From positions 248,001 through 312,000 of the forward strand of contig CAJXVS010000003.1 in NCBI GenBank assembly GCA_913061265.1: a DNA stretch of 64,000 nt, read 5' to 3'. A model generated the notes under the pieces. It was not told where the DNA came from and searched no databases. It saw only the letters and a program-made list of their open reading frames with translations. Positions 50,141 through 55,012 of the stretch are shown here, piece by piece. Source of the DNA: an uncultured Halobacteriovorax sp. (GTDB taxonomy: Bacteria > Bdellovibrionota > Bacteriovoracia > Bacteriovoracales > Bacteriovoracaceae). Position numbers and translations under genes: made by a program. Numbering within the stretch: the first letter of the stretch is position 1; the number at the start of each line of letters is the position of its first letter.

Positions 50141-50989
50141 TTGAAAGACCTTTGGGTTCCCATATCAGGCGCGATAGCACAGCAAAAAAATGTTGAGACC
50201 ATAGCCAACAATGTTGCTAACGCGAACACACCTGGATTTAAAAAAGACCAGCTGGCCTTTAAAGAGCACTTACAAGTTCTAGAAAAAGGATACAACGATA
50301 TAGATCTTCCTAATAAAGAATGGGCTCCAGCAGATTTTTACAGATCTTATGGAGCAGAGAATGCACAAGTAAAAGTCGACGGTTCATATACTAATCATCA
50401 GCAAGGCTCCCTTCAGCCAACTAACAATCCTTTAGATTTAGGAATTCATGGAAAAGGCTTTTTCGAGGTTCTAACTCCTAACGGTGTTAGATATACAAGA
50501 AAGGGAACCTTCTCGATTAATAGTAAGAATCAATTAGTAACTAGCGATGGCTTCCCGGTTTTAAGCAAGCTCGATATACCTGAGTCAGCTTTGAACAGAG
50601 AGCTCGCTTCAAATAAAGAAATAAAGCTACCTCAACCTGAAGAGAGAATCGTTAACCTTGGTAAAGGAAATATTTCCATTAACCTTGAGGGTGAAATTTA
50701 TCAAAGTGGAAACAGAACTGGAAAGTTATCCATTGTTGAATTTGAAGATATTCACGCCATTAAAAAAGAAGGTAATTCTTTTTATATCAATAAAGACTTA
50801 AGAAATATTAAAAATTCAGAACTTAAATCTGCAGTCCACCAAGGGTTTGTAGAGGGGTCAAATGTGAACGCTGTTTCTGAAATGAGTAATCTAATTAAAG
50901 CTCACAGACATTTTGAATCAATTCAAAAAGTAATCAAGGCCTATGATGAAGTCACAGGTAGAGGTGTAAATGAAATTGCTAAGTTCTAA
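50141..50989 (+). CDS. flgF: Flagellar rod protein FlgF
   Basis: Proximal rod component of the flagellum. The N-terminal rod motif VETIANNVANANTPGFKKDQ and the C-terminal FVEGSNVNAVSEMSNLIKAH are standard for the FlgF/FlgG group; position before flgG favours FlgF. 282 residues against 251 in E. coli. It begins with TTG: AGGAGG stands 7 bases upstream, while the ATG at 50134 is out of frame. It heads a 12-gene flagellar cluster. Confidence 0.85.
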   Translation: MKDLWVPISGAIAQQKNVETIANNVANANTPGFKKDQLAFKEHLQVLEKGYNDIDLPNKEWAPADFYRSYGAENAQVKVDGSYTNHQQGSLQPTNNPLDLGIHGKGFFEVLTPNGVRYTRKGTFSINSKNQLVTSDGFPVLSKLDIPESALNRELASNKEIKLPQPEERIVNLGKGNISINLEGEIYQSGNRTGKLSIVEFEDIHAIKKEGNSFYINKDLRNIKNSELKSAVHQGFVEGSNVNAVSEMSNLIKAHRHFESIQKVIKAYDEVTGRGVNEIAKF

Positions 50990-51821
50990 ATTAATTCTCT
51001 TATCACTAGTTATGTACTCGCCCCTTTCAAGCGCAATGCTAAAGGCTCTTAATACAGCTGCAACAGGAATGGCAGCTCAAGAGTCTAATGTGAATACTAT
51101 CTCTAACAATATTGCCAACATAAACACTGTTGGTTTTAAGAAGAGAAGAACAGAGATGGAAAGTCTTCTTTATGAAACAGTAAATGATCCTGGAGCTAGA
51201 TCCAGCAACAATACTGTCTATAGTGTTGGGATGCAGGTTGGTAGTGGTGTTAAAGTTTCGGCCATTCGAAAAGAATTTACGGATGGTAGTCCTAATTTAA
51301 CGAATAATCCTTTTGACCTTATGGTTAAAGGTGATGGTTTCTTCGGTGTCATTCTTCCTAACCAACAAGTTGTTTATACTAGAGATGGCTCTTTTAATGT
51401 TGATAAAACTGGAACCTTAGTCACTAAGCAAGGTTATAAAGTTATGCCAGGTCTAGTATTTCCTCCCGGAACTATGAGTGTAAACATTACTGAAGAAGGA
51501 TTAGTTGAAGCCTTCTTAAAGAATCAAATTGAGCCCGCTCAAGTAGGTACAATCCCCGTATATACTTTTGTTAATCCTGTGGGCCTCTCTTCAGCAGGGC
51601 AAAACTTCTATAAAGTCACAAGATCAAGTGGTCCAGCAAGTGAAAATGTAGCGGGTCAAAATAAAACAGGTGTCGTTCTTCAGGGAGCTCTTGAGACTTC
51701 CAATGTTAGTATCATGACGGAAATGACTGACTTAATTAAGGCCCAGCGAGCTTACGAAATGAATTCAAAAGTTATGGGTGTTGCTGACCAAATGTTACAA
51801 GCCGTAAATAATCTGAGGTAA
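50970..51821 (+). CDS. flgG: Flagellar distal rod protein FlgG with a signal-peptide-like start
   Basis: Distal rod protein exported by the flagellar type III system. The usual FlgG start is residue 23 (MLKALNTAATGMAAQESNVN), followed by ISNNIANINTVGFKK, LTNNPFDLMVKGDGFF and the C-terminal ELIKAQR-type segment TDLIKAQRAYEMNSKVM. Ahead of it are 22 residues, MKLLSSKLILLSLVMYSPLS and SA, that look like a Sec signal peptide. AGAGG stands before the ATG at 50970, but no RBS is visible before the ATG at 51036, so the long form may be real. It overlaps flgF by 20 bases. Confidence 0.9.
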   Translation: MKLLSSKLILLSLVMYSPLSSAMLKALNTAATGMAAQESNVNTISNNIANINTVGFKKRRTEMESLLYETVNDPGARSSNNTVYSVGMQVGSGVKVSAIRKEFTDGSPNLTNNPFDLMVKGDGFFGVILPNQQVVYTRDGSFNVDKTGTLVTKQGYKVMPGLVFPPGTMSVNITEEGLVEAFLKNQIEPAQVGTIPVYTFVNPVGLSSAGQNFYKVTRSSGPASENVAGQNKTGVVLQGALETSNVSIMTEMTDLIKAQRAYEMNSKVMGVADQMLQAVNNLR

Positions 51822-51822
51822 G

Positions 51823-52722
51823 ATGAAATTAACTATTGCTTTAGCCCTATTTGTTTTTGCTTCTGTTGCTCACTCTAAAGAGTGCTCAATAGAAAGCTAT
51901 GACAAGATCTACTATATCCCTACAAAGGGTGCTAAGGATCACAAGAGCTTAATAAAAGAATCAAATTGCCCAACAAGTATACAGACGGCCTTTATCTCAA
52001 AGATCTATCAATCAAGCGGTCTTCTTTCTAGCAATGTCTTAAACTACGATGCGAGGTTTAAGAAATCAGGTTATACCGTCCGTTTAACCCCAAATAGAAT
52101 TAGGGTTTCTAATTTAAAAGACAGCCTTAAGGAAAAATTTAATTTAGGAAGCCTTTGGAGCTTTAGTAAACTTAAACTAGTAAATAAAATGACAACCCTT
52201 GGTCTATCAAATGACGATAGCTTAAGTTTTGGTTGTGAGTTTTGTCATACAACTGGCGAGAAAAACATATCCTTTGTTATTTATAATCCTATTAAAAATT
52301 TTTCTAAAACTTATTGGGCTTCTGCAACGGTATTAGTTTCTACTAAGGTTTTGATCCCAAACCGATCAATTTCCCCTTCTGAACCACAACTCGCTCCTTC
52401 AGATTTTAAATTAAAGAGCTTAAGTGTTACTAGGCCAGAGAAATACTTTACCAATATCGAGCAGCTTGTCTTTTACAAAGTTAATAAGCCTATCTCAGCA
52501 AATGATGGCCTTCTTTTTACTGATCTAGTTCCAGTTAATCTAGTGTCAGCAGGAACCCCTACTAAGATAATTTTAAGAAGTAAGACCCTACTCGTTGAAG
52601 GAACTGCTATTCCAAGTCAAAGCGGAAAATTTGGCGAGGTTATAAGGTTAAGAAACCCTAAAACATCAAGAATGATAACTGGTAAGGTCGTCGATTTTAA
52701 CAAGGTGATGGTTGATTTATGA
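51823..52722 (+). CDS. flgA: P-ring assembly chaperone FlgA
   Basis: Periplasmic chaperone that helps FlgI form the P ring. 299 residues: signal peptide (about 1-18, ending AHS), an unusual first half with cysteines 21, 49, 138 and 141, and a C-terminal SAF/FlgA domain from about residue 185 (VLIPNRSISPSEPQL, GTPTKIILRSKTLLVEG, then FGEVIRLRNPKTSRMITGKV). The pair C138/C141 followed by His142 (GCEFCHT) forms a CXXCH string. It lies 1 base after flgG and overlaps flgH (ATGA). Confidence 0.82.
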   Translation: MKLTIALALFVFASVAHSKECSIESYDKIYYIPTKGAKDHKSLIKESNCPTSIQTAFISKIYQSSGLLSSNVLNYDARFKKSGYTVRLTPNRIRVSNLKDSLKEKFNLGSLWSFSKLKLVNKMTTLGLSNDDSLSFGCEFCHTTGEKNISFVIYNPIKNFSKTYWASATVLVSTKVLIPNRSISPSEPQLAPSDFKLKSLSVTRPEKYFTNIEQLVFYKVNKPISANDGLLFTDLVPVNLVSAGTPTKIILRSKTLLVEGTAIPSQSGKFGEVIRLRNPKTSRMITGKVVDFNKVMVDL

Positions 52723-53450
52723 AAGTCCTATTAATGTCTCTCTTTTTTATAGTTTCAGTATCCACTGGCTGCAGTAGCTATGTTGGAAAAATACATAAAG
52801 AATTTGATCGCGCTGATGGAAAAAGAAGACCTCAAAGAAAGCAAAGAGATCAATTTGATTTCTATAGAAAGGATCATTCTAAAGGACCAGGAACTGGTAT
52901 GAGTTCTTCTCAATCAAAGGTAGTTATGCCTACGGTTAAAAGACATTACCAAGAAGAAAAAAGAGTTAAAGCAGATGACCTAAATGACAATGGCAGTAGT
53001 GGTAGTCTTTGGGTTGGAAGCGGTGACGATAACTTCCTCTTTACTAATGATAGGAAAAAATCTAGCGGTGACATCGTTTTAATAGACGTTGAGTCATCAT
53101 TGAAGAATGAAATAACAGCAGAATTAAAAAGAGCTTTTCCAGATACTGTCCGCAAACCTAAAGCAAAAAGTGCTGGAGATAAAGCTGCTGCGGCCAACCC
53201 TGCAGCAGGGGCAGCCGCTCCAGCTGATCCTCAAGCTAGTAAGGAAGAGGTTTTCGACCGCATTAGTAGCATTGTTATAGAAGAAATTAATAAGGATCAC
53301 CTTCTCTTAAGGGGTCGGAAGTTCCTATTATATAAAAACAGAAAACGCCTCGTTGAGGTTCAAGCACTCGTACCAAGAAGAGATGTGACAAATTCAGATA
53401 CTGTTGACTCTTCAAATATCATTGAATCATCCGTTAACGTAATAAGGTAA
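52719..53450 (+). CDS. flgH: Flagellar L-ring lipoprotein FlgH
   Basis: Forms the L ring in the outer membrane. Lipoprotein signal ends STGC (Cys18). Family segments: SGSLWVGSGDDNFLFTNDR and GDIVLIDVESS in the middle, LLLRGRKFLLYKNRKRLVEV and ALVPRRDVTNSDTVDSSNII at the end. An Ala/Pro-rich spacer (about 160-180) interrupts the fold, and the protein is only moderately like E. coli FlgH, but order and topology agree. 243 residues. Confidence 0.85.
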   Translation: MKVLLMSLFFIVSVSTGCSSYVGKIHKEFDRADGKRRPQRKQRDQFDFYRKDHSKGPGTGMSSSQSKVVMPTVKRHYQEEKRVKADDLNDNGSSGSLWVGSGDDNFLFTNDRKKSSGDIVLIDVESSLKNEITAELKRAFPDTVRKPKAKSAGDKAAAANPAAGAAAPADPQASKEEVFDRISSIVIEEINKDHLLLRGRKFLLYKNRKRLVEVQALVPRRDVTNSDTVDSSNIIESSVNVIR

Positions 53451-53454
53451 AAAA

Positions 53455-54459
53455 ATGAAAGCTATTCTTACCCTAATTTTAATTGCCCTTATCTCACAAG
53501 CATCCGCTAAAGCCGTTCGTCTAAAAGAAATAGTCGATATTAAAGGTGTTAGAGAAAACCCTATTATTGGTTACGGGCTAGTCATCGGACTAAATGGTAC
53601 TGGTGATGGTGGCGGAGAAATTGTAGACAACTCTCTTAGGAGGATGTTTCAGAAGCTAGGATTAAATCCTCAAAATGAAATTTCCTCAAAAAACGTAGCC
53701 AGCGTTATTGTCACAGCAAAGCTAAAACCTTTTGCTCGTGTTGGGCAAAAGGTAGACGTAAAGGTTTCAAGTATAGGAAACGCTGGCTCTTTAGCTGGCG
53801 GTACTTTATTAGTAACTCCTCTTAAAGGTGGAGATGGAAAAGTCTACGGAATTGCAAGTGGCTCCATTTCAATTGGCGGCTTAAACAATGGAAAGAGATT
53901 TCCAACTGCTGGATTAATCTCTAATGGAGCGACTGTTGAAAAAGAGCTCGAGTTAAACTTTGATAAAAAGAAAAGTATCAGACTTAGCTTAAAGCAACCA
54001 GATTTCACAACTTCAGCTCGTGTAGAAAAGGTAATCAATCAAGAACTAGGTGGTAAGTTTGCCAGTTCTAAAGATTCAACGACAGTTGATTTAATTATTC
54101 CCGCACACTATCAAAGAAAAGTTGTTCAGCTTTTGGCCATCGTTGAAAACTTCAAAGTTCATACGGACTCTATTGCAAAGATCGTTATAAACGAGAGGAC
54201 TGGTACTATCGTTGCCGGTGGTGATGTTCTCCTAAAGCCCGTGGCCATCAGCCATGGGGACCTTACTATCGAGATTGGAGACAATGGAGATGGGGGTAAG
54301 GAGAAGCCAAACCGCTTCTACTTTCTTGACCAAAAGACTTCATTAAATGAATTGGTTAAAAGCCTCAATGCTTTTGGAACTACACCCGAAGATTTGATAT
54401 CGATATTTCAAGCACTTAAGAGAAACGGTGCCTTGATAGGAGAAATTGAACTCATTTAG
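53455..54459 (+). CDS. flgI: Flagellar P-ring protein FlgI
   Basis: Forms the P ring around the rod in the peptidoglycan layer. 334 residues: signal peptide about 1-18 (ISQASA), then RLKEIVDIKGVRENPIIGYG, LVIGLNGTGDGG, the strand VASVIVTAKLKPFARVGQK and the C-terminal LNEPV-type region ending ALIGEIELI. It starts 4 bases after flgH. A 115-base gap follows before flgJ. Confidence 0.96.
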   Translation: MKAILTLILIALISQASAKAVRLKEIVDIKGVRENPIIGYGLVIGLNGTGDGGGEIVDNSLRRMFQKLGLNPQNEISSKNVASVIVTAKLKPFARVGQKVDVKVSSIGNAGSLAGGTLLVTPLKGGDGKVYGIASGSISIGGLNNGKRFPTAGLISNGATVEKELELNFDKKKSIRLSLKQPDFTTSARVEKVINQELGGKFASSKDSTTVDLIIPAHYQRKVVQLLAIVENFKVHTDSIAKIVINERTGTIVAGGDVLLKPVAISHGDLTIEIGDNGDGGKEKPNRFYFLDQKTSLNELVKSLNAFGTTPEDLISIFQALKRNGALIGEIELI

Positions 54460-54574: not shown

Positions 54575-55012
54575 TTGAGCATAAAAGTAACAAAAGAACA
54601 TTCCCCTATTTCTGTTGATCAACAGAAGAAATCTCATAAAACAAAACCTGAGTTAGTAGACGATTATAAGTTTATTCCTAAAGCTTACAAAGACGTTGCT
54701 TCTGGAATGGAAAAACAATTTGCAGAGTTCATGATCACTCAAATGAATAACTCTGTTGGAGCTGAGGAAACAAACTCAGGTGCTAAGTATTATAAGTCTC
54801 TTATGAATTCTGAACGTGCCGATATCATGGCCACAAAGGATCAAGGACTAGGATTACAAAAAGTAATCCTAGATCAAATCTATCCTCAGAGAATGAGAAG
54901 TGAAATAGCTTACAAGCAGTTTCTTGCCGCGCAAGAAAATAGAATTATAAAAAAGAATGATATTCAAATGGCGAAACCAGACGCCGAAGGCAAGGAGCCT
55001 GTAAATGAGTAA
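54575..55012 (+). CDS. flgJ: Rod-binding protein FlgJ, N-terminal domain only
   Basis: 145 residues matching the rod-binding half of FlgJ (KQFAEFMITQMNNSVGAEE, YYKSLMNSERADIMATKDQG and LGLQKVILDQIYPQR). The C-terminal muramidase domain present in E. coli FlgJ is missing, as in many non-enteric bacteria, so a separate enzyme must open the wall. It starts with TTG, with AGGA 7 bases upstream. The stop overlaps flgM by 8 bases. Confidence 0.8.
   Translation: MSIKVTKEHSPISVDQQKKSHKTKPELVDDYKFIPKAYKDVASGMEKQFAEFMITQMNNSVGAEETNSGAKYYKSLMNSERADIMATKDQGLGLQKVILDQIYPQRMRSEIAYKQFLAAQENRIIKKNDIQMAKPDAEGKEPVNE

Follow-up and report, generated by a model that had tools for sequence, protein, structure and literature searches.

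By which route does FlgG, the protein of the distal rod, leave the cytoplasm in the family Bacteriovoracaceae? In the textbook picture, every rod, hook and filament subunit of the flagellum crosses the flagellar type III channel unfolded and adds at the tip. The question is raised by a stretch of 64,000 nucleotides from an uncultured Halobacteriovorax sp. (the window), for which an initial annotation had claimed that an AGAGG ribosome-binding site starts FlgG 22 codons before its normal N-terminus, that the extra residues form a basic, hydrophobic stretch ending in SSA, and that either this leader only couples translation to flgF or FlgG takes an unexpected route. Here we consider the leader in the window and in related genomes, together with the site by which FlgG would dock on the type III gate and the corresponding features of the other export substrates.

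The flgG gene of the window

Both descriptive claims are borne out by the sequence of the window (Table 1). AGAGG lies at 50960-50964 with a spacer of 5 nt to the ATG at 50970, the reading frame holds, and the methionine corresponding to residue 1 of canonical FlgG is codon 23, at position 51036. The residues ahead of it divide into MKLLSSK-LILLSLVMYSP-LSSA, that is, a basic n-region with two lysines, a hydrophobic core and an S-S-A end, and so display the basic n-region, the hydrophobic core and the small residues at -3 and -1 of substrates of Sec and signal peptidase I; a cut after A22 (51035/51036) is predicted. The first 20 nt of the leader are shared with the end of flgF. That the gene is flgG follows from its family, its place in the operon beside flgF on one side and flgA, flgH and flgI on the other, and its single copy: the product scores 316.6 bits against NCBIfam TIGR02488 (cut-off 252.75) and aligns without gaps to FlgG of PDB 5wrh over residues 1-258. 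The match to TIGR02488 begins at residue 26, which puts residues 1-22 outside the FlgG family model.

Of the neighbouring products, FlgI carries a leader of the same style as that of FlgG. The TTG start of flgF is served by a strong ribosome site, as it is in much of the family. The FlgJ-like protein is short, has no muramidase domain and scores below the cut-off of the rod-binding family.

Table 1. Flagellar features in the window, with positions counted from its first nucleotide
Feature	Position	Strand	Remarks
flgF	50141..50989	+	TTG start, without leader; docking-motif equivalent FKEHL intact
Shine-Dalgarno of flgG	50960..50966	+	AGAGGTG; precedes leader start
flgG open reading frame	50970-51821	+	283 aa, ATG start; reading frame checked
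FlgG leader	50970..51035	+	MKLLSSKLILLSLVMYSPLSSA; 22 codons, Sec-type, n-h-c make-up
Mature FlgG (distal rod)	51036..51821	+	TIGR02488; gapless alignment to PDB 5wrh FlgG
Gate recognition motif site F41xxxPhi45	51156..51170	+	MESLL in window; FEDLL in 5wrh
flgA, P-ring chaperone	51823..52722	+	TIGR03170 63 bits (cut-off 54.65); own Sec-type leader
flgH, L-ring	52719..53450	+	PF02107 50.9 bits (cut-off 27); lipobox-like leader end STGC
flgI, P-ring	53455..54459	+	NF003676 348.4 bits; Sec-type leader ending QASA
flgJ-like single-domain rod cap	54575..55012	+	TTG start, without leader; PF10135 21.8 bits (cut-off 25.1), weak

Distribution and form of the leader

Among 129 genomes of the same family FlgG was found in 119, with close matches under records named Halobacteriovorax marinus, Bacteriovorax sp. 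and Bacteriovoracaceae MAGs, and all 119 flgG starts were examined in the upstream frame. A leader of 15-30 residues precedes FlgG in 68 of these genes, the other 51 having the canonical start. Genera are uniform in this respect: 27 of 45 have the leader throughout, 18 lack it throughout and none is mixed. Outside the family, all 67 FlgGs are leaderless with a canonical start (13/13 from other families of the phylum and 54/54 from other phyla). Each of the 119 family genomes has one FlgG at E<=1e-60, so that no leaderless copy is available as a stand-in, and the presence of a second, leaderless FlgG was rejected at this threshold. Three genes that the automatic choice of start had made leaderless (G068, G071 and G073) are counted with the leader after reading by hand; the leader frame of G071 (L149) holds no ATG, GTG or TTG, and a CTG behind ACGAGGT may be its start.

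The leaders were judged by simple rules asking for a boundary site, a hydrophobic core and a net charge of the n-region >= 0. These are passed by 65 of the 68, the boundary rule being failed by three; as controls, each other frame of the same DNA gave 0/68, and leaderless or outgroup genes 0/64. The residue directly before canonical residue 1 is Ala in 40 leaders, Gly in 10, Ser in 7, Cys in 3, Thr in 3 and another in 5, which makes A, G, S or C in 60/68. The net charge of the n-region is at least +1 in 66/68, and the best hydrophobic window of eight residues has a minimum of 1.74 and a median of 3.04. The end of the leader is usually A-x-A-like at canonical residue 1, and a rough scan for the best A-x-A placed it exactly at the canonical boundary in 39/68 leaders and from -7 to +4 in the remainder. 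As in signal peptides, the letters vary freely from genus to genus around a constant n-h-c form and a constant end point. Comparison of the upstream frame in relatives had been proposed in the initial annotation as a check, as had signal-peptide prediction; the comparison, and a judgement by these simple rules, came out in favour of a real leader, one that is kept in all 68 genes though its exact letters vary.

Other kinds of leader were rejected: twin arginines, as for a Tat leader, occur in 0/68, and a lipobox, as for a lipoprotein processed by signal peptidase II, likewise in 0/68. In one genus (g23; L010, L159 and L163, from G024, G090 and G089), the residue at -1 is a cysteine (SFC, GYC and GFC, respectively), without a lipobox.

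Translation of the leader

The ribosome site precedes the leader where there is one and the canonical methionine where there is none. The median Shine-Dalgarno energy of leader genes is -6.4 where the leader starts and -0.2 at the canonical position, against -7.9 for leaderless genes at their canonical start. In 8 of the 68 leader genes, ATG, GTG and TTG are all absent at canonical residues 1 and 2, and in those genes the leader must therefore be translated. The overlap of 20 nt with flgF seen in the window recurs in 11/68 leader genes in all, and the other 57/68 are spaced by -1 to +40 nt. With so few overlaps, and with eight genes lacking a canonical start codon, an artefact of translational coupling was rejected.

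Decay of the docking motif

A line of evidence independent of the leader itself comes from the gate recognition motif, which is taken here to have the form Phe-x-x-x-hydrophobic. According to the accessible parts of the published work, it is by this motif that early type III substrates dock on FlhB (PMC8983047); the form agrees with F36 to L40, the FlgD residues given in PMC9307174, and the deletion studied in FlgE covers residues 39-43 (PMC8983047). For the motif of FlgG, the available text of the eLife paper carries no residue numbers. Residues 41-45 of FlgG in PDB 5wrh read FEDLL, and the aligned MESLL of the window has thus lost the phenylalanine and kept Phi45. Early flagellar type III export substrates have FxxxPhi, at 41-45 in FlgG, and no cleavable N-terminal signal; FlgG of the window has a broken motif and a leader of Sec type, the cleavage of which is a prediction from its sequence.

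The window is not a single case. Leaving out G148, where the gene meets a contig end, F41xxxPhi45 is broken in 47 of 67 leader-bearing FlgGs, spread over 15 of the 27 genera: 20 are intact, 12 keep only the phenylalanine, 18 only the hydrophobic residue, and 17 have lost both. The motif is intact in 51/51 leaderless FlgGs of the family and in 13/13 FlgGs of the phylum outgroup, and F41 and a hydrophobic residue 45 are kept in 54/54 FlgGs from other phyla. Counted by genus, it is broken in 15/27 with the leader versus 0/18 without (Fisher p 5e-5, kinship ignored). The effect is centred on the two motif positions. When the columns of 67 leader-bearing, 51 leaderless and 13 outgroup FlgGs are compared, column 41 is the most relaxed in leader-bearing FlgG of 47 columns that are otherwise near-fixed in leaderless and outgroup proteins, and F41 and L45 lead the 98 columns that leaderless FlgG conserves; the neighbouring positions 38, 40, 44, 46 and 48 are fixed or nearly so.

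How far this association survives common descent was considered on a tree of FlgF and FlgG, built without the motif columns from 70 rows (62 family genes, at most two per genus, and 8 of the 13 outgroups). On it, leaders lie deep in the family, and a leaderless clade is nested, with the leader genera g9 and g18 within it. The presence of the leader changes about five times, and breakage of the motif at least nine times, always within leader lineages, although the total branch length of leaderless and outgroup lineages (17.6) exceeds that of leader lineages (15.3). Column 41 changes 10 times inside leader lineages and 0 times outside, compared with 0-3 changes inside for the other 42 columns that have none outside. 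By a simple branch-length calculation, nine losses of the motif would all land in leader lineages with a chance of 0.01, which is much weaker evidence than the Fisher values. An independent-pairs test found two pairs on starred branches (p not below 0.5; bootstrap of the careful tree not settled) and is powerless because the leader changes only about five times.

Other export substrates and the type III gate

Is FlgG alone in this? A leader common to all axial proteins was rejected, as none was found on FlgF, FlgB, FlgC, FliE, FlgE or the FlgJ-like cap where these were read. In the genomes with a FlgG leader, FlgF has none (G079 left aside in this survey of starts); automatic FlgF starts fell upstream in several genomes, e.g. 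G004, G025, G116, G122, G130 and G027, and by eye none of the upstream extensions is signal-peptide-like. The FlgF equivalent of the docking motif is intact in 68/68 leader genomes, 51/51 leaderless genomes and 12/12 outgroups. In 30 genomes, 19 with the FlgG leader and 11 without, no leader was seen on FlgB, FlgC or FliE, and the motifs of FlgB and FlgC are intact in 30/30. FlgE has no leader in the 17 readable of 20 fetched pieces, and its motif is present in all nine pieces that are long enough. The FlgJ-like rod cap showed no signal-peptide-like leader by eye in 26 family genomes; four outgroup copies were read as well, and the copy of G167 has a long upstream frame. Leader genomes tend to give the rod cap a lower PF10135 score than leaderless ones do, a tendency confounded by kinship.

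FlhA was found in 110 of 124 family genomes and FlhB in 30/30, so the type III gate is still present, and loss of the type III system was rejected. As the gate is there and the other substrates have kept their motifs, it should serve them, and the change is FlgG's own. FlhB may have drifted too: in 30 family genomes (L297-L326), its pocket position, which we take to be A286 by Salmonella numbering, is Ser in 15/19 leader genomes and in 1/11 leaderless ones, 10/11 of which have Ala. To judge from these residues, a co-change of the pocket with the FlgG leader is possible. A general drift of motifs in response to a changed FlhB was rejected, since the other substrates keep theirs even though the A286 position differs.

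A probable Sec route for FlgG and its alternatives

What can be concluded about the route of FlgG? The sequences themselves demonstrate a translated leader, Sec-type by its make-up and restricted to FlgG, and a loss of the FlhB docking motif confined to leader-bearing FlgG; transport by Sec, cleavage and assembly from the periplasm are what we infer from them. Most probably, in our view, FlgG has left flagellar type III export for Sec and signal peptidase I, with the other rod and hook subunits staying with type III. The FlgG precursor, with its cleavable Sec signal peptide, would be carried over the inner membrane by SecYEG and cut by signal peptidase I at the old N-terminus, so that the mature protein would begin like every other FlgG. 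It would thus bypass the FlhAB-FliPQR gate and the rod channel, for which FliE, FlgB, FlgC, FlgF, the FlgJ-like cap and FlgE would remain as substrates. From the periplasm, FlgG would join the type III-built proximal rod from outside, under or instead of the cap, and its addition would precede the closure of the P and L rings made of FlgI and FlgH, which are also exported by Sec. In evolution, a Sec signal peptide would have been gained, selection on the docking motif would have relaxed in consequence, and the motif would then have decayed many times.

Taken one by one, the parts of this account are in line with what the accessible parts of the literature report. The motif phenylalanine of FlgB (F45) is required for secretion, and mutations in the FlhB pocket block secretion of FlgG or FlgE (PMC9307174); FlgH and FlgI travel by Sec, and the rod proteins by the flagellar exporter (PMC8298488). 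The equivalent phenylalanine of FlgC is required for assembly and not for secretion (PMC9307174), which makes a structural cause for the loss of F41 possible; such a cause would not explain why the loss is tied to the leader. Against Sec export speak the 20 of 67 leader-bearing FlgGs with an intact motif and the Phi45 retained in the window.

The same 20 proteins, together with a start codon at canonical residue 1 or 2 in 60/68 leader genes, would fit a dual routing, in which the long product goes by Sec, and a product of the internal ATG, or the precursor itself, by the type III gate. We consider this unlikely, given a Shine-Dalgarno energy at the canonical position of -0.2 in leader genes versus -7.9 in leaderless ones, the 8/68 leader genes that have no start codon there, and a motif broken in 47/67. 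That the leader serves the type III gate, as an uncleaved and strengthened N-terminal hydrophobic signal, is very unlikely. A small hydrophobic signal close to the N-terminus is indeed required by early substrates, as stated in the available part of PMC8983047, but this signal works together with the docking motif, and decay of that motif is confined to leader-bearing FlgG; moreover, the leader has the form of a signal peptide, a small residue marking the old N-terminus in 60/68, and nothing similar is seen on FlgF, FlgB, FlgC and FliE of the same genomes. Still less credible is the first option of the initial annotation, a leader that only couples translation of flgG to flgF; the working FlgG would then be made from the canonical methionine. 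The 20-nt overlap in the window speaks for it. It is contradicted by the eight leader genes in which residues 1 and 2 both lack a start codon, and against it are also the restriction of the overlap to 11/68 genes, the signal-peptide form recurring through 27 genera, and the loss of the docking motif. The other option given there, an unexpected export route, is supported at the level of sequence by that same recurrence, by the eight genes and by a motif loss limited to FlgG.

A further possibility accepts the route and changes the function: Sec-exported FlgG might act elsewhere in the periplasm, the distal rod being made by another subunit. The change of route itself would suit this, as would the lower family scores of the rod cap in several leader genomes. 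We nevertheless find it quite unlikely, as mature FlgG is strongly conserved (of the 43 columns that do not change outside leader lineages, 33 do not change inside them either), the genes for the P and L rings are present, and each genome has a single FlgG and no other candidate for the distal rod.

If FlgG is indeed routed by Sec, part of the drive shaft, namely its outer half, the distal rod, is probably built from outside the inner membrane in this family. It is likely that the axial shaft as a whole is then supplied by two export systems, with proximal rod and hook coming through the type III channel and the distal rod through Sec by way of the periplasm. Such a two-system shaft would be an exception to the rule of passage through the channel for every axial subunit and would make axial growth independent of the channel at this step, raising questions about the control of rod length, the role of the rod cap and the means by which the type III switch senses the finished rod. 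The family also offers a natural test of the gate recognition motif: with the apparent change of route, precisely F41 and L45 decay, next to residues that stay fixed. One record with the trait, L047, is from Halobacteriovorax marinus, so that experiments are possible in a predator genus that can be cultured.

Comparison with known systems

A full-text search of the open-licence literature returned no earlier report of a Sec-routed FlgG in titles or abstracts. The nearest mention is of FlgG of 'Candidatus Liberibacter', which has a signal peptide predicted by software and is marked positive in a PhoA assay in E. coli; in the accessible part of that source it is an entry of a proteome screen without discussion of the route (PMC5167687). 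Within the operon, FlgI, FlgH and FlgA resemble FlgG in having the same kind of leader, encoded by adjoining genes, and for FlgH and FlgI export by Sec with cleavage is established in Salmonella, according to the available text of PMC8298488. They differ from it in that they make, or help to make, the stationary rings around the rod, whereas FlgG is an axial subunit. With Salmonella FlgG (TIGR02488, PDB 5wrh), the protein described here shares the family, the mature length and the place of its gene in the order flgF-flgG-flgA-flgH-flgI. However, while the known FlgG passes the type III gate uncleaved, FlgG here bears a leader of Sec type, and its motif for docking on FlhB is broken.
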